Source: Chthonomonas sp. (GTDB lineage: Bacteria; Armatimonadota; Fimbriimonadia; Fimbriimonadales; Fimbriimonadaceae). From it: a stretch of 64,000 bases of DNA. A program made the position numbers and the translations under genes. Under the pieces are notes generated by a model. It saw only the letters and a program-made list of their open reading frames with translations, searched no databases and was not told the origin of the DNA. The stretch lies in contig JAEURQ010000001.1 in assembly GCA_016788425.1 (NCBI GenBank), positions 1 through 64,000 of the forward strand. The letters run 5' to 3'. This document shows, piece after piece, positions 7,691-57,219 of the stretch; position 1 is the first letter of the stretch, and each line of letters opens with the position of its first letter.

Positions 7691-8143
7691 ATGACGAAAG
7701 TAATGACCTCTCGCTTTGGCGAGATCGAGTACACCAAGGAGGATGTGCTGACGGTTCGCGAAGGATTGCTAGGCTTCGAGGGATTCACCAAATTCCTCTT
7801 GATTGAACACAAACCGGATAGCCCGTTTCGCTGGATGCAGTCGCTGCAACGGCCGGAACTCGCCTTTTTGGTCGTGGACCCATTCCAGTTTTTTGCCGAT
7901 TACGACGTGGTTTTGACCGACCAAGCGGCGGAAGATTTGGAATTAACGCCAACAACGGGGCAGGTGGTCTATACTATCGTCACGATTCCTCGTGGAAAAC
8001 CTGACGACATGACCGTGAACCTGGCCGGGCCCATTGTCATCAATGCAGATACCCGTGAGGCGCGTCAATTCGTTGTCGAGAACCCGGCGTTCTCGGTGAA
8101 GCAACGACTTGTGATCGAGTCTCCGGTGAAGACAGCCGCGTAG
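7691..8143 (+). CDS. fliW: Flagellar assembly factor FliW
   Basis: The 150-residue protein matches Fli[27 protein letters not shown] at the N-terminus and the [25 protein letters not shown] core (quoted here only as landmarks at about residues 99-125). FliW binds flagellin and, when free, sequesters CsrA, coupling flagellin synthesis to export. The ATG at 7691 was chosen for its CAGGA at 10-base spacing; upstream TTG and ATG starts are possible. It lies 32 bases before csrA, the conserved partner order. Confidence 0.93.
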
Positions 8144-8175: not shown

Positions 8176-8382
8176 ATGCTGGTTTTAACAAGGAAGCTCG
8201 GCCAGAGCATCATTATCAACGACGAGATCGAAATCGTCGTGCTGGAGGTTCGCGGCGAACAGGTCCGTATCGGGATCAAAGCGCCGCGAAACGTCCCGGT
8301 TCACCGCAAAGAAATCTTCGAGCAGATTCACGAAGAGAATGTGGCCGCCTCGGACGTGGACCCCGGCGACGTGCCGGGCTAG
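8176..8382 (+). CDS. csrA: Carbon storage regulator CsrA
   Basis: The 68-residue protein begins [16 protein letters not shown] and contains [18 protein letters not shown], the diagnostic CsrA RNA-binding blocks. CsrA dimers bind GGA in hairpin loops near ribosome-binding sites; in FliW-bearing bacteria the chief target is flagellin mRNA and FliW is the antagonist. A strong AGGAGG at 8161-8166 precedes the ATG, so this gene is clearly leadered. Its TAG stop shares CTAG with the convergent holB stop. The acidic 15-residue tail is poorly conserved in the family. Confidence 0.96.
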
Positions 8383-9239
8383 TTCTTCGCGAGCAAAATC
8401 TCGCAGAACAGCGGATCCAACTGCATCCCCGAGTGGCCCATCATGGTCACGCGCCGATGCGCCTCGGCGACTTTTAAGCCGATGGACGGCGCCAACTGAT
8501 GGTGCCGCACCCACGCCGCCACCATGCGCAATCCTTCCACATTCTTCTCGCGAGTCCCACTGCCGGGGAGTTTGTCGGCGAGCACCAAAAACTGCTCAGT
8601 CGCGCGGATCGCGTAGCTGGGTTTGCGCGAAAGCAGATCATTCAAAAAGCTGTGCAGGTCCTCGTAGGGACCCGGCTTCTCGCGCATTTTCGCGCGTCGG
8701 GCGAGGCTGCCTTCGCAGAAGAGTCGCTCCGCCGGCGACCAGTCGCCATCGTCTTCGCCGGGTTGGCAGGCAACCACGCAGCAGCGCGAGATAATCGTCT
8801 GCGCGATTCCGCTGAGCGACGACGAGGTGAGCACAAATCGCGCGTGAGCCGGGGGCTCTTCCAACATCTTGAGCAAGGCGTTGCTCGCGGCATCGTTCAT
8901 CCGCTCGGGCCGGTCAATCCACACCACCTTTGTTTGGTGAATCAGGGGCCGAGTGCGCAGAAACATCTGCACCGTGGTGCCTTCAAAGGTGGTCGGGTTT
9001 TTCGGCACGATCATTTGCACCGTGATGAACCCGCCCGAACCTTGCGCGGCCACCCGTAGCACGTCGATGTTGCGGTCCAGCGGTCGGTCGAGTTCGCAGC
9101 CCATCCACGTGTTGATCAGCTCGAGGGTCACGGCCTCGATCTCAGAATTCTCCGCGCCGACAAACAGCACCGCGTGGGTGGAGCCCGAGCCCTCGCGGAT
9201 GACGCTCAGCAAGCGCTGGGCGGGGCTAGAAGCGCTCAT
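8379..9239 (-). CDS. holB: DNA polymerase III delta-prime subunit (HolB)
   Basis: The 286-residue protein has the clamp-loader delta-prime signature: the [27 protein letters not shown] block (about residues 104-130), followed by [22 protein letters not shown] with an arginine-finger SRC motif. As in many delta-prime subunits the P-loop is absent ([13 protein letters not shown]), so it would be a non-ATP-binding stator. It overlaps the upstream darA stop by 14 bases and the order darA-holB matches the neighbourhood in Firmicutes (tmk-darA-yaaR-holB), which supports the call. Confidence 0.85.
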
Positions 9240-9549
9240 ACGACTCCACAGGAATAAAGAACAGCACCGCGCCGCCGACCGGCACCTTCATCGCGGTAGG
9301 TAGCATGCCCGCGCCGGATTCCACCGGGTTCACGCTCATGATCTGCTCGCGAGCGTGGCAGTTGCGGCCGATTACGGTCTTCAGCTCTTCCTTCTGATCG
9401 TCGTCCAGACCGATCATGAAGGTCGCGTTGCCCTCTCGCAGAAAGCCGCCGGTGCTGCTGAGGATGGTGAACTTAAATCCCGACGCAACCAGATCGTCCG
9501 ACAAGCGATTCTTGTCGCGGGAATGGACGATGCAAATGGCGAGCTTCAT
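9226..9549 (-). CDS. darA: Cyclic-di-AMP receptor, DarA/PstA (PII-like)
   Basis: The 107-residue protein is a PII-like trimer-forming family member: MKLAICIVHSRDKNRLSDDL then FKFTILSSTGGFLREGNATF, where the STGGFLR-GN block is the c-di-AMP site of DarA. In Firmicutes it reports c-di-AMP for osmotic and cell-wall control; targets are poorly known. The ATG at 9549 gives the family N-terminus; a longer frame to 9585 is not needed. It is followed by holB with a 14-base overlap, and preceded by the terminator of the sigma-GGDEF gene, so it probably has its own promoter. Confidence 0.88.
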   Translation of the reverse strand: MKLAICIVHSRDKNRLSDDLVASGFKFTILSSTGGFLREGNATFMIGLDDDQKEELKTVIGRNCHAREQIMSVNPVESGAGMLPTAMKVPVGGAVLFFIPVESYERF

Positions 9550-9589
9550 GCCGGAATCAGGAACCTCATTAAACCCGATCAGCATGCCC

Positions 9590-9630
9590 CAAAAACTCCC
9601 CCGCGGGAGTGAATCGCGGGGGAGTTCTTG
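9590..9630 (-). terminator. Intrinsic terminator of the sigma-GGDEF gene
   Basis: A perfect 11-bp stem (ACTCCCCCGCG at 9595-9605 with CGCGGGGGAGT at 9615-9625) is extended by CCCC/GGGG outside an A5/T-rich junction. Read on the minus strand it is followed by TTTTT, so it ends the transcript of the gene stopping at 9646. Confidence 0.88.
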
Positions 9631-9645
9631 GGGAAAGACCGTTCC

Positions 9646-10914
9646 CTAGGCGGCCTTCTTGTTGCCTTGCGGGCGAGCCGGAGCCGCCGCGTCGTACAGC
9701 TTGCGGGCCGCCTGACCATCCGTGGGGAACGTCGCCGAACCCAACACCACCTTGACCGGACCGCTCGGCGCTTGGCGCGTCGCCAGCCAGTCGTGCATCA
9801 ACTCGTTTAGGCGGAGCCCGATGACCTCGGCGGTGAGAGCGGTGCCGCAAAGCACTACGCCAAAGCCGGTCTTGCCGACCCGGCACACCACGTCAATGCG
9901 GCGGACATTTTCCTTAAAGAAGTCGGCGACGTCCATCAGAAAGTCTTCCACCGATGCTTGGCCGTAGTAGGAACCCAGCAAGTCGAGGCCGTCGAACTCA
10001 AAGCGCAGCAGGCCCATTTGACCTTCCATGCTCGAAGCGCGGTGACACTCTTCTTGCAGGCGAGTGAAGAAGTACGTTTCGCTGTAGGCACCGGTGAGCG
10101 GGTCCACGGTGTTATCATCCGGGAACGAGTCCACTTGCTTGCGCAGGCGCACTTCCTTATCGTTTTCGGCGGTAAGAATGCGGCGCAACTTGCCCAGCGA
10201 TTGGCGAAGAATGTGCGACACGTAGTTGCACGAAATGCCAAGTCGGTGCGCGATCTCGGTTTGATTCAGCGCGTCAAAGTGGAACAACGTCAGCACGTCG
10301 CGCTCGACGTCGCGCAGTTGTTGCATGGCCGATTCCAACAGCACGCGGTCTTCCACCGAAAGCTGCTCCTTGCAGAAGTCGCCGCTGTCCAGTTGATCAA
10401 CTTCGGCGCCGTTGTCGTCTTCGCCCTGCGATTGGTCGAGCGAGGCCAGCTTGAGCATGTCCTGCGTTTGGAACACTTCCTCCACCGCGCTAGCGGTGAT
10501 GCCCACGGCGGTCGCGATTTCCTCGACCGTCGGTTGCCGACCGTGTTCGGCTTGCAAAATGCCGACGGCTTTGTTGACCTTGTGGCGCAGCTCTTGCAGC
10601 CAGGCCGGTTGGCGAATGGTTTGCGAGCGGTCGCGCAGATAGTGCTTCATCTCGCCGGCTACCAGGTGCGTGGCGTAGGTGTTAAAGCGCACTCCGGCTT
10701 CCGGGTTGTATTTGCTCAGCGCGTTGAGCAGGCCAACAAAGCCCACTTGCACGAGGTCTTCTTGCGCTTCGAGACCCGAAAAGCGGCGAGCGATGCGCTC
10801 CACCAAAGGCGAATATTGAACCAAGATCAGGTCTTGGAGTTCGGGCCGGGGCCGCTCGAGATAGCGCAGTACGAGAGCATCTTGCTCTTCACGTTGCAAC
10901 GATTGTTCAGACAT
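9646..10914 (-). CDS. Sigma-70 factor fused to a degenerate GGDEF domain
   Basis: The 422-residue protein has sigma region 2 (about 28-100, with EDLVQVGFVGLLNAL and FNTYATHLVAGEMKHYLRD), region 3 (105-155) and region 4 with an HTH (205-247, LNQTEIAHRLGISCNYVSHI), in the SigB/SigF/FliA style. After a short linker comes a GGDEF fold (about 268-412): DPLTGAYSETYFF, then RRIDVVCRVGKTGFGVVL where GGDEF is replaced by GKTGF (347-351), and the usual LGSATFPTDGQAARKLYDAA tail. The catalytic motif is lost, but R338xxD341 sits exactly where the allosteric I-site RxxD lies. It is therefore predicted inactive as a cyclase but possibly c-di-GMP-binding. GGAG precedes the ATG at 10914. Upstream pilC is co-directional. 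Confidence 0.88.
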   Translation of the reverse strand: MSEQSLQREEQDALVLRYLERPRPELQDLILVQYSPLVERIARRFSGLEAQEDLVQVGFVGLLNALSKYNPEAGVRFNTYATHLVAGEMKHYLRDRSQTIRQPAWLQELRHKVNKAVGILQAEHGRQPTVEEIATAVGITASAVEEVFQTQDMLKLASLDQSQGEDDNGAEVDQLDSGDFCKEQLSVEDRVLLESAMQQLRDVERDVLTLFHFDALNQTEIAHRLGISCNYVSHILRQSLGKLRRILTAENDKEVRLRKQVDSFPDDNTVDPLTGAYSETYFFTRLQEECHRASSMEGQMGLLRFEFDGLDLLGSYYGQASVEDFLMDVADFFKENVRRIDVVCRVGKTGFGVVLCGTALTAEVIGLRLNELMHDWLATRQAPSGPVKVVLGSATFPTDGQAARKLYDAAAPARPQGNKKAA

Positions 10915-10939: not shown

Positions 10940-11020
10940 GCCCACATCCATGCGGGCTGGCGGTGAACAAGCCGGGAAGCTTGTTCACAAGGGTTGGTCG
11001 GGGGGCCGCCAGTGCGGCCC
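10940..11020 (-). promoter_or_regulatory. Three tandem hairpins in the pilC/sigma-GGDEF gap
   Basis: The 113-base gap between pilC and the sigma-GGDEF gene holds three stems: GGGCCGC/GCGGCCC with CAGT loop (11003-11020), a perfect 10-bp GTGAACAAGC/GCTTGTTCAC (10963-10988) and GCCCRCA-type 7-bp stem (10940-10957). None has a T-tract on either strand. They could be processing or attenuation signals, mRNA stabilisers after pilC, or a ligand-responsive leader; the sequence matches no riboswitch I recognise. Confidence 0.55.
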
Positions 11021-11027
11021 AGAGAGA

Positions 11028-12236
11028 TTACGAAACGCTTTGGATGATCGAGAAGATCGGGCTCATGACGGCGATGGCGATGAAGCCAACGATCACACCC
11101 ATGAAGATGATGAGCAGCGGCTCGATCATCGAGGTAAGACCCTTCACGGTGGCTTCCACTTCGGTGTCGTAGAAGTCGCCAATCTTGACGAGCATTTCCG
11201 GCAGGCGACCAGATTCTTCGCCGATGTCAATCATCTGCGTGACCATCGCCGGGAAGAGGCCGCTGGCCATGAGCGGAGCCGAGAGCTTTTGACCCTCACG
11301 AATGCTCATGCGGGTGTTGTCAATCGCTTCCTGCAGAACTTTGTTCGCCAAGGTTTCGGAGACGATTTCGAGCGAGCGCATCATCGGAACACCCGAGTTG
11401 ATGAGCGTGCCGAACGTGCGGCAGAATCGAGCCACGCTCATCTTGAGCGAAAGCTCGCCGACGATCGGCGCATGCAACTTGATCCAGTCCAGCTTGTAGC
11501 GGCCATTGGTGGTTTTGCCCCACTGCTTCACCCCGATGAATCCACCGATGGCGAACAGAATGATCATCCACCAGCGAGCCTGCATGAAGTCACCCATGCC
11601 GAACAGCGCCTTGGTGATGGTCGGGAGTTCCACGTCCATGCCCTTGAAAATGTCCTTGAAGCGCGGCAACACAAAGGTGAAGAGCGCAAACAACATGAGC
11701 ACCGAGAACCCGAGCACCATGACCGGGTACATCATCGCGCCCTTGATCTTGGCGCGCACCTCGGCTTCGTATTCCAAGAACGTCGAAAGGCGCTCCAGGA
11801 TGATGTCGAGGATCCCGCCAACTTCGGCGGCGCGGATCATGTTGATGTAGAGCTTGCTGAAGATTTGCGGGTGCTTGGCCATCGCCTCGTTGAGCGGCGT
11901 CCCCGACTTCACGTCGACAAACACCTGCTCCAGCACTTCCTTCAGCGCAAGGTCCTTACACTGGTTGGTCAGAATTTCCAGACAGCGGAGAATGGGAATC
12001 CCCGCGTCGATCATCGTCGCAAATTGACGGGAGAAGACGACGAGCGCCTTCGGCTTCATTTTCTTCTTGCCGAAGCTCGATCCACCTGCGGACGCCTTCT
12101 TGGTCTCCGTGACCTCGATGACGTGCAGCGATTGCTCCCGCAGGCGGGCAACAATCGAGGCCTCGCTTTCGGCTTCGATCGTGGCTCGAACCTGTTTTCC
12201 GGATGCGTCGACTGCGGTGTAAGCGTAATACGGCAT
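11028..12236 (-). CDS. pilC: Type IV pilus/type II secretion inner-membrane protein PilC/GspF
   Basis: The 402-residue polytopic protein starts with the MPYYAYTAVDASGKQV beta-segment of the PilC/GspF family and contains two T2SSF domains (about 70-195 and 270-395). The motifs FSRQFATMIDAGIPIL and FCRTFGTLINSGVPMM are the paired conserved blocks, and GEESGRLPEML precedes the final membrane segment. PilC is the inner-membrane platform working with PilB/PilT ATPases. No other assembly gene is adjacent here, although a prepilin is encoded at 59517-60218. The gene is followed by the sigma-GGDEF gene on the same strand. Confidence 0.93.
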   Translation of the reverse strand: MPYYAYTAVDASGKQVRATIEAESEASIVARLREQSLHVIEVTETKKASAGGSSFGKKKMKPKALVVFSRQFATMIDAGIPILRCLEILTNQCKDLALKEVLEQVFVDVKSGTPLNEAMAKHPQIFSKLYINMIRAAEVGGILDIILERLSTFLEYEAEVRAKIKGAMMYPVMVLGFSVLMLFALFTFVLPRFKDIFKGMDVELPTITKALFGMGDFMQARWWMIILFAIGGFIGVKQWGKTTNGRYKLDWIKLHAPIVGELSLKMSVARFCRTFGTLINSGVPMMRSLEIVSETLANKVLQEAIDNTRMSIREGQKLSAPLMASGLFPAMVTQMIDIGEESGRLPEMLVKIGDFYDTEVEATVKGLTSMIEPLLIIFMGVIVGFIAIAVMSPIFSIIQSVS

Positions 12237-12442: not shown

Positions 12443-13033
12443 ATGGATGTTTTCGCCTCGGTCCGCAAGTCGGATAGCCAGAGCCAAGCTGACAACCGTC
12501 AGCACTTTGAAAAGCTCATGCGCGAAAGCTACCGTCAGGTGTTTAGCTTGGCGATTCGGTTGACCGGCAACGCCAGCGAAGCCGAAGACCTCGTTCAGGA
12601 ATCCTACGTCCGTGCCTTTCGGTTCTTCCACCGGTACGATCGCTCGCTCCAATTTACGAGCTGGCTGTACCGGATCATGACCAACGTCCACATCGACTCG
12701 ATTCGGCGAAAGTCCCGCCTGAAGGTCACGAGTTTGGATTCGGTTGGTCCGCAAGGGAACAAAGCGTGGGACGTGCCCGACCAAAGTTCAACGCCTGAGG
12801 AGACGATGGTCGAAAGCCACCTCGCCGAGCCGTTCCAGATTGCATTGCGCGCAATGACTCCGGAATTTCGCATGGCCGTGATGTTGGCTGACGTAGAAGG
12901 GCTGGCATACGAGGAAATTGCAGAAATGATGGACATCTCGGTTGGCACTGTTCGCAGCCGCATCCATCGTGGAAGAAAGCAATTGAAAGAACGCCTCGGC
13001 CCTAACTTCCTCAAGGAGATTTCGCTTCGATGA
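12443..13033 (+). CDS. ECF RNA polymerase sigma factor (RpoE/SigW-like)
   Basis: The 196-residue protein has region 2 (about 25-95: LTGNASEAEDLVQESYVRAF, FTSWLYRIMTNVHID) and region 4 (135-190: GLAYEEIAEMMDISVGTVRSR) without region 3, the ECF layout. Its ATGA stop-start overlap with a zinc anti-sigma gene, then an RseB/LolA-like protein and an HtrA protease, is the standard envelope-stress arrangement, so it probably directs transcription of periplasmic quality-control genes. A GGGAACT-type promoter candidate lies just upstream, suggesting autoregulation. Confidence 0.95.
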   Translation: MDVFASVRKSDSQSQADNRQHFEKLMRESYRQVFSLAIRLTGNASEAEDLVQESYVRAFRFFHRYDRSLQFTSWLYRIMTNVHIDSIRRKSRLKVTSLDSVGPQGNKAWDVPDQSSTPEETMVESHLAEPFQIALRAMTPEFRMAVMLADVEGLAYEEIAEMMDISVGTVRSRIHRGRKQLKERLGPNFLKEISLR

Positions 13034-13467
13034 ATTGCACCTGGACCACTGCCCGACTGTCCGCCTACGTAGATAACGAACTCGGTGGCGAAGACATGCT
13101 CCGCATCCGCGAGCACCTGCGACTCTGCCCGTGCTGCGCTCAAGAACTTGAGGCCCTGCGCACAATCAAGCTGAGCTTGGCCGAGCTCTCGACGTGCGGC
13201 CCCGATCCTGATTTTGAGAGTCGCCTCATTGCTCACGTAATGGGCGCCGACCTCTCCCCGGCCCGACGGAGCCCGAATCGCCTGGCGCTGGTCGCCGCGG
13301 CGGGTCTCGCCATCGCGGGTCTTTCCTATGTTGTGATACAACAAGTCGCCCCGCCAAAGGCCGCGCCCGCGCCGCAATTGGTGGAAGCCGATCCGGCCGC
13401 GGTGTGGGGCGCCGATCCCCTGTCTGGCCAAGTGCCGGTGGTTTCGGCCGCCAGCTACAATCGGTAA
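13030..13467 (+). CDS. Membrane anti-sigma factor with zinc-binding (ZAS) motif
   Basis: The 145-residue protein has an N-terminal zf-HC2/ZAS motif H29-LRL-C33-PC-C36 within LRIREHLRLCPCC, a linker, one transmembrane segment (about residues 85-104) and a periplasmic Pro/Ala-rich tail. It would hold the ECF sigma factor of the overlapping upstream gene at the membrane until released. ATGA overlap with the sigma gene indicates translational coupling. A site-1/site-2 protease is not encoded in the window. Confidence 0.88.
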   Translation: MNCTWTTARLSAYVDNELGGEDMLRIREHLRLCPCCAQELEALRTIKLSLAELSTCGPDPDFESRLIAHVMGADLSPARRSPNRLALVAAAGLAIAGLSYVVIQQVAPPKAAPAPQLVEADPAAVWGADPLSGQVPVVSAASYNR

Positions 13468-13476
13468 GCCTGTTTC

Positions 13477-14472
13477 ATGAAAGTTCGAGGTTTGAGTGGG
13501 GTTCTCCTCACCATTCTCCCCGCCATTTTGTGCGCGGAGAGTCCGCTGGAGTACCTGGATCGCGCCCTCCGCGCCGAGCGGATGACGCCCGGCGTGTTCA
13601 TTCAACAGCACCGCAATTTCGCGGGTCAGAAAACTCAAAAAGTGATGGTGATGCGCGACGGCGAGGGTCAGTCGCTGGTCACGATTCTTGAGCCCCTGAA
13701 CCTGCAGGGCGTGCAAAGCTTTGATACGGGCCGCGAGATGCACACCTACTACCCCGACAGCAAGCAGCTGATTATCCGTCCGTGGGGATCGCAGCAGGCA
13801 CGGGTCGATCCGAAGATGCGGATGCGCCTGATTGAGCGCAACTACAAGGTCAGCTCGGGCAAGGGCCCCAAGGTGGCGGGCCTGCTCACCACCAAGATCA
13901 CCGCTCAGCCGGTGGCCAAAGATGTCCCGCGCCGCACCATGTACTTCGCGCGCGGCTCCACCAACTTGCTCAAGATCGAGGTCTCGCTCGGCAAGCAGAA
14001 CAGCACGATTTTCGAAACGCTCAGTCAGAGCCCTTATAGCGGCACCCTGCAACCGCCCGCTTCCAACGGCTGGGATCGGGCGACCACGTGGGGACCCAAG
14101 CCGATGGGCACCGACCAGCAAACGCGCGTCCTCTTGCGGATCGCGCCGGTGATCCCCAAGACTCTGCCCAAGGGTTTTGAGGTGGTGGACTCGTTCTACA
14201 ACGGGCGCGATGCCGAGAGCGCATTCCTTATCACGCGGGTCACCGATGGCCTGACGCTGGTGACGATTCTGCAGGGCCAAACCAAGGTGATGCCGACCAT
14301 ACCCGGCACCGAACAAATCAAGGCGCGCGGAGTCAGTGTCATTGCCGACGGGCTCGCGCCGGCCCCGCTCCTCACCGAAATTTTAGAAGCGTTTTCGCCG
14401 ACCCGGGCCCAAAGCCCTCGCGGGGAACTCGCGACAACGGCCAATAGTTATTCTCAATACCCAAAGAAATGA
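13477..14472 (+). CDS. RseB/MucB- or LolA-like exported protein
   Basis: The 331-residue protein begins with a signal peptide (MKVRGLSGVLLTILPAILCA) and contains a LolA/RseB-type unclosed beta-barrel region (about 25-200: LVTILEPLNLQGVQSF, HTYYPDSKQLIIRP) followed by a second domain (about 215-310: GFEVVDSFYNGRDAESAFLITR) that resembles the RseB C-terminal part. RseB senses mislocalised lipoproteins and shields the anti-sigma factor from proteolysis. Its place between the anti-sigma gene and htrA supports that role. It overlaps htrA by four bases (ATGA). Confidence 0.75.
   Translation: MKVRGLSGVLLTILPAILCAESPLEYLDRALRAERMTPGVFIQQHRNFAGQKTQKVMVMRDGEGQSLVTILEPLNLQGVQSFDTGREMHTYYPDSKQLIIRPWGSQQARVDPKMRMRLIERNYKVSSGKGPKVAGLLTTKITAQPVAKDVPRRTMYFARGSTNLLKIEVSLGKQNSTIFETLSQSPYSGTLQPPASNGWDRATTWGPKPMGTDQQTRVLLRIAPVIPKTLPKGFEVVDSFYNGRDAESAFLITRVTDGLTLVTILQGQTKVMPTIPGTEQIKARGVSVIADGLAPAPLLTEILEAFSPTRAQSPRGELATTANSYSQYPKK
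14423..14451 (+). promoter_or_regulatory. Candidate internal ECF-type promoter before htrA
   Basis: GGGAACT at 14423-14429 inside the 3' end of the RseB-like gene is followed after 16 bases by AGTTAT (14446-14451), 17 bases before the htrA ATG. The -35 matches the box upstream of the ECF gene; the -10 match is weak (GT only). It could allow htrA to be expressed apart from the regulators. Confidence 0.35.
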
Positions 14473-16067
14473 AGCAAACAACTCCTTTCTGGATGAAACC
14501 CGCCCTCTGGATCGGCCTCGGCGTGTGCGCCGGCGTCGTCGCCACGGGCTCGTTCCTCACTGGCACCGGCTTCCGCCCGGCATTCGCCCAGCGCGTTCCG
14601 CAAACCTCGGTCGTTCGGAATGAGCCGAGCGGCTCGCCCATGGCCCTGCTTCGCCAAATGGACCAGGCGTTCGCCGACGTGAGCGAATCGGTCGCCCCGA
14701 GCGTCGTGCACATTAAGGTGGGCGGCCAAGCGAATGCCCCGACCACGGTCGGTCAACCCGACCCCACGCTGCGCGGTCAGGGGAGCGGCTTTATCTTCCG
14801 CGCGGACGGCTGGATTATCACCAACGACCACGTGGTGGAAGGCGCCAAGGAAGTGACCGTCGTGTTCAACGATGGCCGCGAGATGAAAGGCACGGTTCGC
14901 TCCTCGGGCGACTCGCGCAATGACATCGCGCTGGTGAAGGTGGAAGCGAAGGAACTTCCCGCCGCCAAACTTGCCGACAGCGGCACGATCCGCGTGGGCG
15001 AGTTTGCGCTTGCCTTTGGCGCGCCGTTTGGTCTCGAGAACTCCGTGACCGTCGGCCACATTTCCGCGCTCGGACGGACCAGTCTGGCGGGTGGCGGAGC
15101 CTCCCGCACCGTGCGATCGTACGCCGGGATGATCCAAACCGACGCGCCGATTAACCCGGGCAACTCGGGCGGCCCGCTCGTGAACATTTACGGCGAGGTC
15201 ATCGGCGTCAACACGAGCATCTACAACTCGGGCGGCGGCGGTCTCACCGAGCCGGGCAACGTCGGCATCGGCTTTGCCATTCCGAGCAACCAGGTTCGCC
15301 TGATCGCCGATCGTTTGATTAGCAAGGGCAAGCTGGAGCGCGGGTTCCTCGGCGTGGTGCCGGGCGACCTGACCCCGTACGAAAAATCGCAACGCAAGAT
15401 TGAGCAAGGCGCTGTGCTGCGCGACGTGCAGGAAGGCACACCCGCTTACGCCGGTGGCCTGCGCAAAGGCGACGTGGTGACCGAGATTCAGGGCGTACCC
15501 GTGCGCGGTCAACAGGACCTGCTCAACGCCATGCTCGACCTCGCGCCGGGCAACAAGGCCGAAGTGAAGTACGTCCGCAACGCGACCGAGCAAAGCACTA
15601 AGGTGACGATTGGCTCCTCGCCGATTGCTCAAGCCGAACCGCAACAATCCAGCCCGCTGCTGCCGCAATTCCCGCGGCTGTGGGGGCAGGAAGACAACCA
15701 GGACGACCCGAATCAACTGTTCCCGAATCAGGGCGAAAAGGCTCCCGCGCCGAACAAGGCAACCATCGGTAGCCCGGCCAAAATCGGCGTGATGGTGAAG
15801 GTGCTCGACGACGCCGATCGCAAGAACTTCAACATCCCAGCCGGCAAAAAGGGTGCGCTCATCACGAGCGTGTCGGCTCGATCGGTGGCCGAGCAGTTTG
15901 GCCTGAAGCCTGGGGACCTCATCGTCAAGCTCAACGGCCAGGATGTCGCTACGCCCGACGACGTGACGCGCGCCATGCAAGGCAAAAAGGTGGGCGACGA
16001 AGGCTCAATGGCGATTGAGAATTACGAAGACGGCCTGATTAGCCGCTCGTTTACGTTCACGTTCTAA
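14469..16067 (+). CDS. HtrA/DegP-family periplasmic serine protease
   Basis: The 532-residue protease has an N-terminal signal anchor (residues 8-40), a trypsin-like domain with the triad His121 (TNDHVV), Asp152 (RNDIALVKV) and Ser233 (NPGNSGGPLV), and two PDZ domains (about 300-385 and 435-525) separated by a Gln/Pro-rich linker. HtrA proteins degrade or refold damaged envelope proteins. It is the last gene of the ECF sigma operon, as mucD is in Pseudomonas. It ends 11 bases before the convergent fur stop codon. Confidence 0.96.
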   Translation: MKQTTPFWMKPALWIGLGVCAGVVATGSFLTGTGFRPAFAQRVPQTSVVRNEPSGSPMALLRQMDQAFADVSESVAPSVVHIKVGGQANAPTTVGQPDPTLRGQGSGFIFRADGWIITNDHVVEGAKEVTVVFNDGREMKGTVRSSGDSRNDIALVKVEAKELPAAKLADSGTIRVGEFALAFGAPFGLENSVTVGHISALGRTSLAGGGASRTVRSYAGMIQTDAPINPGNSGGPLVNIYGEVIGVNTSIYNSGGGGLTEPGNVGIGFAIPSNQVRLIADRLISKGKLERGFLGVVPGDLTPYEKSQRKIEQGAVLRDVQEGTPAYAGGLRKGDVVTEIQGVPVRGQQDLLNAMLDLAPGNKAEVKYVRNATEQSTKVTIGSSPIAQAEPQQSSPLLPQFPRLWGQEDNQDDPNQLFPNQGEKAPAPNKATIGSPAKIGVMVKVLDDADRKNFNIPAGKKGALITSVSARSVAEQFGLKPGDLIVKLNGQDVATPDDVTRAMQGKKVGDEGSMAIENYEDGLISRSFTFTF

Positions 16068-49292: not shown

Positions 49293-50069
49293 ATGGCGTT
49301 ATCGCAGGAACAATTGCAAAAGTCGTGGGTTGATTTTAAGGTCTATAAGGACCCCACATCCCGCGCCGACCTGATTAACCACTACAGCTATTTGGTGAAA
49401 ATCACCGCGGGACGATTGGTCACCAGTTTGCCCGGCGGCCTAGATCGCGAAGATCTCATCGGAAGCGGCGTCATCGGCTTGGTCAAGAGCGTTGACCAAT
49501 TTGACCCGACCCGCGATGTTAAGTTTGAAACCTACGCCATTGCCTTGATCCGCGGCGCAATTTTGGAAATGCTTCGCGATGAAGACTGGGTGCCGCGCAG
49601 CATCCGCGAGAAGCTGAAGGCTCTCGACAAGGCTTACCTGAACCTGGAAACCCAACTCGGCCGTTCGCCCAGCGAGCGCGAAATTGCCGAGCGCATGGGC
49701 ATCAGCGATGTGGAAGTGAGCGAACTGCTCGTCCGCATGGGTCGCACCAACGTTTACAGCCTCGATGACATTTTGGGTTCGCCGGGCGGTGACGACAGCG
49801 TGCCGTTCCGCGATTTGCTGGTGGACGACAAAGCCACGCCGGGTCATGAGACCGAGGGTCGCGAAATCCGCCGCATTCTCGGCGACGGCATCGACCGTCT
49901 TCCCGAACGCGAGCGCCTTGTTGTGGCGCTCTATTACTTTGAGGGGCTCACTTTCAAGGAAATCGGCAAGGTGCTGGGCGTCAGCGAATCGCGCGTTTAC
50001 CAGCTCCACACTCAGGCCATGAACCGCCTTCGCACGTTCATGAAGGACCAAACAACGGTCGGCGCTTAA
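49293..50069 (+). CDS. fliA: Sigma-28 family sigma factor (FliA/WhiG)
   Basis: The 258-residue protein has region 2 (about 30-95: EDLIGSGVIGLVKSVDQFDP, FETYAIALIRGAILEMLRDEDWVPRSI), region 3 (100-160) and region 4 (about 205-250: FEGLTFKEIGKVLGVSESRVYQLH). The DWVPRS motif is diagnostic of FliA/WhiG. It transcribes late flagellar genes such as flagellin. GGAGAG precedes the ATG. No flgM is seen next to it. fliW, csrA and fliS also occur in the window. Confidence 0.93.
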   Translation: MALSQEQLQKSWVDFKVYKDPTSRADLINHYSYLVKITAGRLVTSLPGGLDREDLIGSGVIGLVKSVDQFDPTRDVKFETYAIALIRGAILEMLRDEDWVPRSIREKLKALDKAYLNLETQLGRSPSEREIAERMGISDVEVSELLVRMGRTNVYSLDDILGSPGGDDSVPFRDLLVDDKATPGHETEGREIRRILGDGIDRLPERERLVVALYYFEGLTFKEIGKVLGVSESRVYQLHTQAMNRLRTFMKDQTTVGA

Positions 50070-51291: not shown

Positions 51292-52194
51292 ATGAACTTG
51301 ATGCAGACTACTTTTGTTGCCAGTTGGCGAGAACCCGGCGAGGCGACCATTCGCGAGGCGTGGCGACAGTTCTCGGCGGGGGCCGACATGCTCACGGCCA
51401 TGGCCGAGGGGCTGGCCGTCGCGGAGTTGGATCCCAACCTTATCGCGATTGGCCGCGGTTCGGTGCCCAACACCGACGGCGACATTGAGCTGGACGCCAG
51501 CATCATGGATGGCCAGACCCTCAATTCGGGCGCGGTGTGCGCCGTTCGAGGCATCTGCCCGGTTATCCGGGTGGCCAAGCAGGTGATGGACCTCACCCCC
51601 TGCGTGATGCTCGCCGGCGATCAAGCGCGCCGCTTTGCGCTCGAAAACGGAGCCGAGCCCGTGGTGACGCACAGCGAGGATTCCATTCGGCGGCACCAAC
51701 TTTGGGCGGCCGCCGAGAACAAAGAAGCGCATTACGTGCACGTGATGAGCGACCCCACGTCGCAGATTCACGGCGACACGGTGACGATTTTGGGTCTGAA
51801 CCAGGGCCATGTGGCGGCGGCCTCCAGCACCAGTGGCTTGCCGTTTAAGCGTCCGGGGCGCGTGGGTGACTCGCCGATCATTGGCGCGGGCATCTACGCT
51901 GACGACGAGTTGGGTGCGGCCGGCGCGACGGGCAACGGGGAGGAACTCTGGCGAGCGGTGGCCTCGTTCCGGACTCTGGAGCACATGCGCGGCGGGATGA
52001 GCCCCACCCAGGCTTGCGAAGCCACGATCAAGTTTATGGCGCGGCGACGGCCCGTCACGCTGGAGCAGCCGTGTGTGGTGTTCGCGATGAGCCCCGAGGG
52101 CGAAGTCGGCGCGGCGACCACGCACAGCCCGTTTCCGATGTGGGTGTGCCGCGACGGCGCGATTGAACTCACCGAGATTCCGCCCATCGCCTGA
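51292..52194 (+). CDS. N(4)-(beta-N-acetylglucosaminyl)-L-asparaginase/isoaspartyl peptidase family
   Basis: The 300-residue Ntn-hydrolase has the autoprocessing threonine Thr163 in HGDTVTIL and the GLPFKRPGRVGDSPIIGAGIYAD block that marks glycosylasparaginases. It would cleave GlcNAc-Asn bonds or beta-aspartyl peptides after self-cleavage. There is no clear signal peptide. Starts at 51292 or 51301 are both possible. Its TGA stop overlaps selB by one base (TGATG). Confidence 0.88.
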   Translation: MNLMQTTFVASWREPGEATIREAWRQFSAGADMLTAMAEGLAVAELDPNLIAIGRGSVPNTDGDIELDASIMDGQTLNSGAVCAVRGICPVIRVAKQVMDLTPCVMLAGDQARRFALENGAEPVVTHSEDSIRRHQLWAAAENKEAHYVHVMSDPTSQIHGDTVTILGLNQGHVAAASSTSGLPFKRPGRVGDSPIIGAGIYADDELGAAGATGNGEELWRAVASFRTLEHMRGGMSPTQACEATIKFMARRRPVTLEQPCVVFAMSPEGEVGAATTHSPFPMWVCRDGAIELTEIPPIA

Positions 52195-53966
52195 TGGCTG
52201 GCATCATCGGAACCGCCGGTCATGTGGACCACGGGAAGTCGGCGCTCATCAAGGCGCTGACTTCGATTGACCCGGATCGTCTGCCCGAAGAAAAAGCGCG
52301 TGGCATGACGATTGATCTCGGGTTTGCGTTTCTGAATGATGCCCACGGCGCCCGAGTCAGCATGGTTGACGTGCCCGGCCACGAATCGCTGATCACCAAC
52401 ATGCTGGCCGGGGCGATGGGCGTGCAGGTTTGCCTGCTCTGCGTGGCCGCCGACGACGGCATCATGGCGCAAACCCGCGAGCACTTTGCTCTCATGGAGT
52501 TGCTGCCCGTCGAGCGCATGGTGGTCGCGATTACCAAGGCGGATCTGGCCGATGCCGAGCTATTGCGGCAGCGCCGCAAAGAAGTTCAATCGCTGTTCAG
52601 CGGAACCCGATTTGCCAGCTCCCCGATTGTCACCTGCAGCGTGGTTGATGGTCACGGCCTGGAGGACGTGCGCCGGCAGTTGCTAAGCGCGCATGCCAGT
52701 CTAGGCGAGCCGCGCCGTGGCGGTGCGGCACTGTGGGTGGACCGCGCGTTCGCCCAAAAAGGTCGCGGCAACGTGGTGACCGGCAGTTTGCTGCGCGGAG
52801 AACTTCGCGTTGGCGAAGACCTGGTCGCGTGGCCGCGCAATTGGCGGGTCAAGATTTTGGAATTGCAGGTGCACGGCCAAACGGTTGCCAGCGTGGAGGG
52901 GCCGGAGCGGGTTGCGATATTGCTGAGCAGCAAGGTGACGCTGGAGGAAATGCCGCGAGGCACCCTGCTCGCCGAGCCGCAACTGGGTTCGGCGGAGACC
53001 GAACTCCACGCTCAAGTTCGCTGGGTGTCCGACGAAAAACCGCCGCGCCGCGTGCGCGTCGGACTCGGAACCGAGGATGTGCTCGCCGACCTGCGCATGC
53101 AAGGCGAAACCGCCATTCTTAAGCTCGACCGTCCGGTCGGAGTGATCCCCGGCTCGCCGATTATTCTGCGTCGCCACAGCCCGATGGACCTGCTCGGCGG
53201 CGGCATGCTCGTGCCCGCCACCGCGACTGGCAACACGGTTCTGAGCCTTATCGAGCGGGCCGCCAACGGCGTGACCACCGAGGTCATCTGCCGCAAGCTG
53301 GGTCGTACGCCGCAGGAACTTGGCGACGAGTTTGAGCGGCTCAAGCGCGCCGGGACGATCGTCGGTTTGGCCGGCACGTGGCTCGCGGCCGACCACCTGC
53401 AGACCCTTGCTCGCGCTTGCCTGAGCGCCATGGAAACCTTCCACACGGCGCACCCGGCGTTGCCCGGCCCCAAGAGCGAGCAGGTGGAGATTGCGCTGAC
53501 CGGCAAGCCGCGCGAGCGCCTGTTGGCATTGCTGGCTCAACAGGGCCACTTGCGCGCGCAGGGCAACTGCTGGGCGCTCACCAGCTTTCGCATGCGCCTG
53601 AACGAGCGACAGGGCCAGCTTGTCGAGCGATTGGTGCAGGGCTTGGCCGGGCACGGATTCAATCCTCCCAACCCCTATGAGCTCGGCAAAGAGCTGAACA
53701 TTCCGTTGCCGACCATCGAAGAGGGGCTTCGGCTTGGCCAAACCGTCGGCGCGATTGTCCAAGTGGCGGCGGACGTGTACTTGGGGCAGGCGACGGTGGT
53801 CGCCAGCGCCCAGGCGTTGCGCGAAAAATTTGGCACCAACGGTTTTTGCGTGGGCGAGGCGCGGACCGTGCTCAACACCAGTCGGCGCGTGGCGGTGCCG
53901 CTGCTGGAGACCCTTGATCGTCTGGGACACACCCAGCGCGACGGCGACCAGCGTCGTTTCTTATAG
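52194..53966 (+). CDS. selB: Selenocysteine-specific elongation factor SelB
   Basis: The 590-residue protein has G1 TAGHVDHGKSALIKAL, G3 DVPGHE, G4 TKAD and the SelB-type GTPase domain, followed by two beta-barrel domains and a C-terminal winged-helix stretch (about 370-590) that reads the SECIS hairpin. The RGMTIDLGFA motif with Asp-Leu-Gly is typical of SelB. Together with tRNA-Sec at 57125-57219 it implies UGA-directed selenocysteine insertion. selA and selD lie outside the window. Confidence 0.94.
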   Translation: MAGIIGTAGHVDHGKSALIKALTSIDPDRLPEEKARGMTIDLGFAFLNDAHGARVSMVDVPGHESLITNMLAGAMGVQVCLLCVAADDGIMAQTREHFALMELLPVERMVVAITKADLADAELLRQRRKEVQSLFSGTRFASSPIVTCSVVDGHGLEDVRRQLLSAHASLGEPRRGGAALWVDRAFAQKGRGNVVTGSLLRGELRVGEDLVAWPRNWRVKILELQVHGQTVASVEGPERVAILLSSKVTLEEMPRGTLLAEPQLGSAETELHAQVRWVSDEKPPRRVRVGLGTEDVLADLRMQGETAILKLDRPVGVIPGSPIILRRHSPMDLLGGGMLVPATATGNTVLSLIERAANGVTTEVICRKLGRTPQELGDEFERLKRAGTIVGLAGTWLAADHLQTLARACLSAMETFHTAHPALPGPKSEQVEIALTGKPRERLLALLAQQGHLRAQGNCWALTSFRMRLNERQGQLVERLVQGLAGHGFNPPNPYELGKELNIPLPTIEEGLRLGQTVGAIVQVAADVYLGQATVVASAQALREKFGTNGFCVGEARTVLNTSRRVAVPLLETLDRLGHTQRDGDQRRFL

Positions 53967-57124: not shown

Positions 57125-57219
57125 GGGAGCGCATGGGTGCCGGTGTGCCCCGCGGTCTTCAAAACCGATTGTGACCTCGTTCGGGGTCAGGTGAGTTCGA
57201 CTCTTACACGCTCCCGCCA
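57125..57219 (+). tRNA. selC: tRNA-Sec (anticodon UCA)
   Basis: The 95-base RNA has acceptor GGGAGCG (57125-57131) pairing with CGCTCCC (57209-57215), discriminator G and encoded CCA (57217-57219), anticodon loop CTTCAAA with TCA at 57159-57161, a long variable arm GACCTC-GTTC-GGGGTC and a T arm GTGAG/CTTAC around TTCGACT. Large size, UCA anticodon and long extra arm identify selenocysteine tRNA. The eighth acceptor pair is C-A. Its 3' end overlaps the antisense cysteine synthase gene by 16 bases. Confidence 0.95.

Follow-up and report, generated by a model that had tools for sequence, protein, structure and literature searches.

A sigma factor fused to a catalytically dead GGDEF domain with an intact I-site, conserved across the Armatimonadota

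Can a second messenger be read by a sigma factor itself? In Streptomyces, c-di-GMP controls the sigma factor WhiG through RsiG, which is a separate protein. A gene of Chthonomonas sp. (Armatimonadota; Fimbriimonadia; Fimbriimonadales; Fimbriimonadaceae) raises the question of a more direct route, as it encodes a sigma factor and a GGDEF domain in one polypeptide. The DNA analyzed, referred to here as the window, comprises positions 1–64,000 of contig JAEURQ010000001.1 (assembly GCA_016788425.1), 64,000 nucleotides in all. An earlier note on this DNA had the coordinates of the gene right; the plus frame contains a stop, and the coding strand is the minus strand. Its reading of sigma regions 2, 3 and 4 followed by a GGDEF domain in one uninterrupted frame was confirmed by Pfam, with all four domains exceeding the curated cut-offs, and GKTGF was found at residues 347–351 as claimed, with R338 and D341 placed so that five residues separate them from the GG position. 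The features of the gene are as follows.

9646..10914, minus strand: sigma–GGDEF fusion gene, 422 amino acids, a single open frame with its ATG at 10914 and its stop at 9646
10624..10818, minus strand: sigma-70 region 2, residues 33–97 (Pfam Sigma70_r2, E 8e-16)
10396..10593, minus strand: sigma-70 region 3, residues 108–173 (Pfam Sigma70_r3, E 1e-11)
10183..10329, minus strand: sigma-70 region 4, residues 196–244 (Pfam Sigma70_r4, E 2.5e-11)
10126..10230, minus strand: predicted long helix linking sigma region 4 with the GGDEF domain, residues 229–263 (AlphaFold2 model)
9682..10110, minus strand: degenerate GGDEF domain, residues 269–411 (Pfam GGDEF, E 4.5e-17)
10039..10041, minus strand: R292, aligned to PleD R313, the inter-subunit I-site arginine (alignment; PleD roles from PMC7288161)
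9892..9903, minus strand: R338-R-I-D341, the RxxD I-site motif, corresponding to PleD R359 and D362 (alignment)
9862..9876, minus strand: GKTGF in place of GG[DE]EF, residues 347–351 (sequence)
9811..9813, minus strand: R368, aligned to PleD R390 (alignment)
9649..9654, minus strand: C-terminal Ala-Ala, a candidate ClpXP-type degron, in a low-confidence and probably disordered tail (416–422)

The architecture and its conservation are established observations. The fusion was uninterrupted in all but a few of 61 genomes, namely its own and 60 relatives of the same order, with identities of 37–72% across the relatives, and profile searches with matches strong enough to require both halves placed it in about 35 of the 45 sampled Armatimonadota families. 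The latter figure is our own reading of the match table, and match strength is part of the basis for the counts across the phylum; both halves were present in the full-length members of the phylum that were examined individually. A sequencing or frame-joining error, which would have refuted the earlier note, is ruled out by the uninterrupted fusion in most Fimbriimonadales and throughout the phylum. In a tree of the sigma halves, all 94 aligned fusions (a few of them near-duplicates) formed a single clade with support of 100/98, and the stand-alone sigma factors of the phylum fell outside it. The fusion is real and not a chance event, and from this single clade one ancient origin is inferred as the most likely history. 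A scan of 85,000 species, which detects only close relatives and makes for a weak search beyond the phylum, returned fusions from Armatimonadota only, barring one contig labelled as a Methanoregulaceae archaeon (JADZEW010000016.1, locus L022). That contig carries both the fusion gene and pilC, and is probably a mis-binned Armatimonadota contig.

It could still be held that a chance fusion is slowly decaying, with the GGDEF half being lost and no regulatory role to explain. One sigma factor inside the fusion clade (L159, genome G121, family f17) has no GGDEF half, and some Fimbriimonas-like genomes have no fusion at all. Retention across the phylum from one old origin, together with four invariant I-site positions in the GGDEF half, is nonetheless incompatible with neutral decay, and this explanation is barely credible. 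The profile search did not find the fusion in about half of the sampled genomes of genus g19, so it is dispensable there, which counts against the regulatory role favored below.

The sigma half is related to the SigB/SigF/SigG group and not to FliA/WhiG, as judged from profile scores. Its best NCBIfam model was SigB/SigF/SigG (TIGR02980), at 179.7 bits under a cut-off of 234, and the FliA/WhiG model gave 130.6 bits and did not meet its cut-off of 189.6; a WhiG-like sigma factor was not supported by these scores. The nearest solved structures were S. aureus SigB (8x6g) and 1l0o, followed by WhiG from the RsiG–WhiG complex. The presence of Sigma70_r3 excludes the protein from the ECF type without region 3, to which ECF41, ECF42, ECF238 and ECF243 belong. 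The architecture does satisfy the description of a sigma factor with an on-board sensor, an extension fused to a complete sigma factor, with the regulatory effect itself being inferred. No small anti-sigma factor of the RsbW/SpoIIAB type was found in the genome, where the HATPase_c_2 matches listed were all in frames of at least 400 amino acids. For a SigB/F-related sigma factor, this absence was counted in favor of built-in control.

The earlier note had described the GGDEF domain as catalytically dead with its I-site kept, and the alignment of the 94 fusions bears this out. GG[DE]EF occurs in none of them, and in six of the seven catalytic columns the commonest residue accounts for only 22–45%. 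At the columns of the PleD metal site, the substrate asparagine, D344 and G369-E370-E371, the commonest residue reaches 22–28%, or 45% (a glycine) at the catalytic glutamate; the sole column of the catalytic motif that is partly kept is the first glycine of GGDEF (62%). A diguanylate cyclase would need an intact GG[DE]EF, the catalytic Glu and the metal-binding Asp, and the fusions do not qualify. The I-site columns gave R338 in 94/94, D341 in 93/94, R292 in 93/94 and R368 in 89/94, with R338 the most conserved position of the whole GGDEF half and D341 joint second, and the loss of RxxD from orthologues that would have spoken against the earlier note was not seen. In a profile alignment to PleD (residue numbers counted by hand), R338, D341, R368 and R292 fall on R359, D362, R390 and R313, respectively; the PleD I-site is built by R359, D362 and R390, plus R313 of the neighboring subunit (PMC7288161). 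The sequence and fold features of an I-site receptor of the degenerate GGDEF type are present, namely the GGDEF fold, the lost catalytic residues, and RxxD with the R390-type and R313-type arginines, with c-di-GMP binding itself being inferred.

What this conservation means depends on how other GGDEF proteins behave. In 31 canonical cyclases of the order, used as a control, the active site was complete, and the RxxD arginine (29/31), its aspartate (28/31) and the arginine at the R368 position (29/31) were kept as well, so RxxD and R368 alone would indicate retention and not a new function, a point against the favored explanation. At the R292 position, an arginine occurs in only 7/31 of the canonical cyclases as compared to 93/94 fusions, so it is in the fusions specifically that this residue is invariant. 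In a separate, paralogous GGDEF family of the order whose active site is intact, the RxxD arginine is present in 2/20 members and missing from 18/20; the GGDEF fold can thus do without this arginine, and a structural requirement is ruled out as the cause of RxxD conservation. This second conserved family (L190–L209; G000:C3 about 397222–397557) probably consists, from its sequences, of cyclases without product inhibition at an I-site. In the least degraded fusions (L142 and L189), the D, N and GD motifs are still visible and the signature reads GGGTF, and these intermediates suggest that the active site was lost stepwise while the I-site remained. As read from the alignment, selection maintains a complete PleD-type I-site in a domain whose active site has drifted. 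Besides the fusion, the genome of the window codes for GGDEF proteins whose motifs are intact and for four PilZ proteins, which means that a c-di-GMP network exists in it.

Structural modelling of the C-terminal domain, which had been put forward as a check, recovered the GGDEF fold. Modelled alone with AlphaFold2, this half had a mean pLDDT of 83.6 and a pTM of 0.75, and it matched GGDEF structures of T. maritima, PleD, WspR and DgcB with TM values up to 0.79. Several of these are c-di-GMP complexes, including those of PleD, WspR and T. maritima. There are no binding data, and that the fusion binds c-di-GMP is an inference, which we consider very likely. Another way to account for the domain would be as a ligand-free dimerization or docking module that pairs with a GGDEF protein or an anti-sigma-like partner, with the conserved Arg and Asp residues forming the interface. 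The catalytic residues are gone, the helix that enters the domain in the AlphaFold2 model resembles the coiled stalks of GGDEF dimers, and some ECF sigma factors do make protein contacts through C-terminal extensions (ECF42, PMC8999054). Such an interface should, however, keep hydrophobic residues as well, and the four conserved polar residues are known c-di-GMP contacts that face away from the active site, a signature expected of ligand binding; docking without a ligand is improbable on these grounds.

The explanation we favor, and hold to be probable, is that the sigma factor is itself the receptor and that bound c-di-GMP gates its activity, its turnover or both, with a link to type IV pili; the binding, the direction of control, the regulon and the proteolysis are all inferred. 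The C-terminal domain would be a cyclase fold that no longer makes c-di-GMP and has kept the whole product-inhibition site. As c-di-GMP rises, intercalated c-di-GMP dimers would bridge two subunits, held by R338, D341 and R368 in the first and by R292 in the second, and the pair of GGDEF domains would be locked as it is in inhibited PleD. The locking, itself inferred, would change the availability of region 4 to the promoter and RNA polymerase via the long connecting helix, and at low c-di-GMP the sigma factor would be freed. In the known RsiG–WhiG system, c-di-GMP arms the inhibitor RsiG, and the Rubrobacter version of this switch governs type IV pilus genes (PMC8325347). By analogy with RsiG carrying c-di-GMP on WhiG, where the ligand arms the inhibitor, the locked sigma factor would most likely be inactive, and we lean only slightly toward the bound state being the off state. 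An effect of c-di-GMP on sigma activity or stability, one direction or the other, is likely, in the absence of transcription data. The full-length AlphaFold2 model (mean pLDDT 76, pTM 0.38) predicted the parts well and showed residues 229–263 as a single helix leading out of sigma region 4 and into the linker. The arrangement of the domains was not confidently predicted, which leaves open how region 4 would be blocked and tells against the favored explanation.

The protein ends in a feature that the earlier description, correct about the architecture, had overlooked. A C-terminal Ala-Ala was observed in 71/94 fusions as against 7/433 (1.6%) of the other open reading frames of the same DNA, and the residues ahead of it vary freely. 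It is nearly universal in Fimbriimonadales and a neighboring clade and mostly missing from deeper lineages, a point against the favored explanation. The tmRNA tag of the genome is ANNNYAYAA, all 13 tags examined in the order end in AA, and within the ssrA tag ClpXP depends mainly on the terminal Ala-Ala (PMC7652416). A ClpXP substrate would be expected to carry a terminal Ala-Ala in a flexible tail, and both are found here, with residues 416–422 below a pLDDT of 50 in the full-length model. Because of the enrichment and the likeness to the ssrA tag of the same genomes, the tail is likely to be a ClpXP-type degron; the degradation itself is inferred, there being no half-life data. The Ala-Ala end would probably make the sigma factor a ClpXP substrate, and so the ligand state may also set its lifetime.

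Lifetime might even be the main output, with c-di-GMP exposing or hiding the Ala-Ala and ClpXP degrading the sigma factor in place of any blocking of region 4. This overlaps with the favored explanation, as the receptor is the same and only the output differs. The excess of Ala-Ala over background in an otherwise variable tail and the endings of the tmRNA tags are what would be expected of it, and PopA provides a precedent in tying c-di-GMP to the proteolysis of CtrA by ClpXP (PMC10212136). About 20 of the 37 fusions from outside Fimbriimonadales are without the tail, however, which makes it unlikely to be the ancestral mechanism, and as the principal mode of control it seems rather unlikely to us.

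The neighboring genes and signals are as follows.

11028..12236, minus strand: pilC (T2SSF), the conserved upstream neighbor (Pfam)
10963..10988, minus strand: perfect inverted repeat GTGAACAAGC-N6-GCTTGTTCAC in the pilC–sigma spacer, without a T-run, a possible operator or RNA hairpin (sequence reading)
9592..9626, minus strand: terminator-like GC-rich hairpin followed by a T-run, 3' of the sigma gene (sequence reading)
9226..9585, minus strand: DarA-type c-di-AMP receptor (CdAMP_rec), downstream of the sigma gene (Pfam)
8379..9239, minus strand: holB (DNA polymerase III delta' subunit), also downstream of the sigma gene
8178..8382: csrA
7691..8143: fliW

Degenerate GGDEF folds occur in other nucleotide systems, and with a c-di-AMP receptor gene just downstream on the same strand, the domain might bind a different nucleotide, such as c-di-AMP, cGAMP, pppGpp or GTP. 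The darA/holB neighborhood is not conserved with the sigma gene, though, the terminator-like hairpin lies between the sigma gene and darA, and the four residues kept coincide precisely with the c-di-GMP contacts of the PleD I-site (PMC7288161), all of which makes another ligand quite improbable. As their adjacency is not conserved, darA, holB, fliW and csrA were set aside as partners of the sigma gene. A riboswitch in the pilC–sigma spacer was also ruled out, an Rfam search of the window having returned only 16S and tRNA-Sec.

The earlier note had pointed to pilC just upstream and to a possible connection with pili, and the neighborhood proved to be conserved, with the regulon itself unshown. 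In 54 of 56 Fimbriimonadales loci, the gene immediately 5' of the fusion, in the same orientation, is pilC; so it is in at least 18 of the 37 loci from other families, many of which end early at contig or locus ends. The pilus link is a conserved pilC–sigma neighborhood and not a coincidence of one genome, and the targets of the sigma factor would probably include type IV pilus genes. Several other families have the gene order pilB–pilT–pilC–sigma, in which pilB carries an MshEN domain, a known c-di-GMP receptor (PMC5013675). At one locus (L188), the gene after the sigma gene is pseudopilin-like.

Ahead of pilC and of the sigma gene, promoters of the SigF/SigB or flagellar type showed no convincing excess over shuffled sequences. 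In 17 of 49 Fimbriimonadales loci, L013, L057 and L062 among them, pilC is preceded by a promoter-like motif, GGAA-N14-CCGACAAT, whose −10 resembles the flagellar/WhiG GCCGATAA. In the form GGAA-N14-[TG]CCGACAAT, it lies 26–71 bp before pilC, precedes HD-GYP, HDOD and PAS genes as well (L245, L235 and L234), and has 28 matches in 17 genomes, compared with 3 when the pattern is reversed; a longer form was too strict. The motif is absent from the window and cannot be tied to the fusion sigma factor. That no target promoter could be assigned counts against the favored explanation, and in its fullest form, with c-di-GMP on the sigma subunit setting the promoter choice of RNA polymerase, ligand-dependent ClpXP turnover via Ala-Ala, and control of type IV pili throughout the phylum, the proposal is tentative and somewhat less likely than not.

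The elements of such a switch are already known separately: sigma factors with on-board sensors, c-di-GMP control via a separate anti-sigma factor, and degenerate GGDEF receptors. In the open-access literature searched, no description was found of a sigma factor carrying a receptor domain for c-di-GMP or another second messenger. The RsiG–WhiG system resembles the fusion in placing an alternative sigma factor under c-di-GMP control, with type IV pilus genes among the targets in Rubrobacter, but its receptor is a separate coiled-coil anti-sigma factor with an ExxxSxxRxxxQxxxD motif and its sigma factor is of the flagellar/WhiG type, whereas the putative receptor of the fusion is a GGDEF domain inside a SigB/F/G-related sigma polypeptide. 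PopA and PelD are likewise GGDEF folds without catalysis whose retained I-site serves as the receptor, and the coupling of c-di-GMP to ClpXP proteolysis, inferred for the fusion, is known for PopA. Unlike the fusion, neither has sigma domains: PopA works as an adaptor for a protease, and PelD is a receptor in the membrane that acts in exopolysaccharide synthesis. Among ECF sigma factors with on-board sensors, CorE responds to metal and OrbS to iron, and ECF41 is presumed to respond to a small ligand that it binds (PMC8999054, PMC9023288). In CorE/CorE2, OrbS and ECF41, a C-terminal extension likewise regulates in cis and no anti-sigma factor was found, yet these lack region 3 and respond to metals or to small ligands not yet identified, while the fusion has regions 2, 3 and 4 and a second-messenger receptor fold. 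SigB, SigF and SigG, with their RsbW/SpoIIAB anti-sigma factors, are the closest families by profile (TIGR02980) and structure; the fusion differs in scoring under the curated cut-off, in the lack of a small RsbW-like protein in the genome and in having its control module fused. If the favored explanation is true, no separate regulator protein would stand between c-di-GMP and the sigma factor, and a sigma factor with its own receptor would be the shortest known route from c-di-GMP to promoter choice. It would also show a cyclase domain turned into a transcription switch, with less degraded GGGTF intermediates (L142 and L189) still alive, and would open the little-studied phylum Armatimonadota to testable regulatory biology.

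Other sigma-related genes occur in the window. The FliA/WhiG-type sigma factor is a different gene, at 49293–50069 on the plus strand, and no flagellar genes were found among its Pfam-scanned neighbors at 42.7–54 kb and 56.5–57.1 kb. Divergent from pilC, at 12443–16067 on the plus strand, is an RpoE-like cluster of an ECF sigma factor, a zf-HC2 protein that is a probable anti-sigma factor, and two more frames, which by eye and not by Pfam read as MucB/RseB-like and DegP-like. The window also holds selenocysteine machinery, with tRNA-Sec at 57125–57219 and a SelB-like factor at 52194–53966, both on the plus strand.
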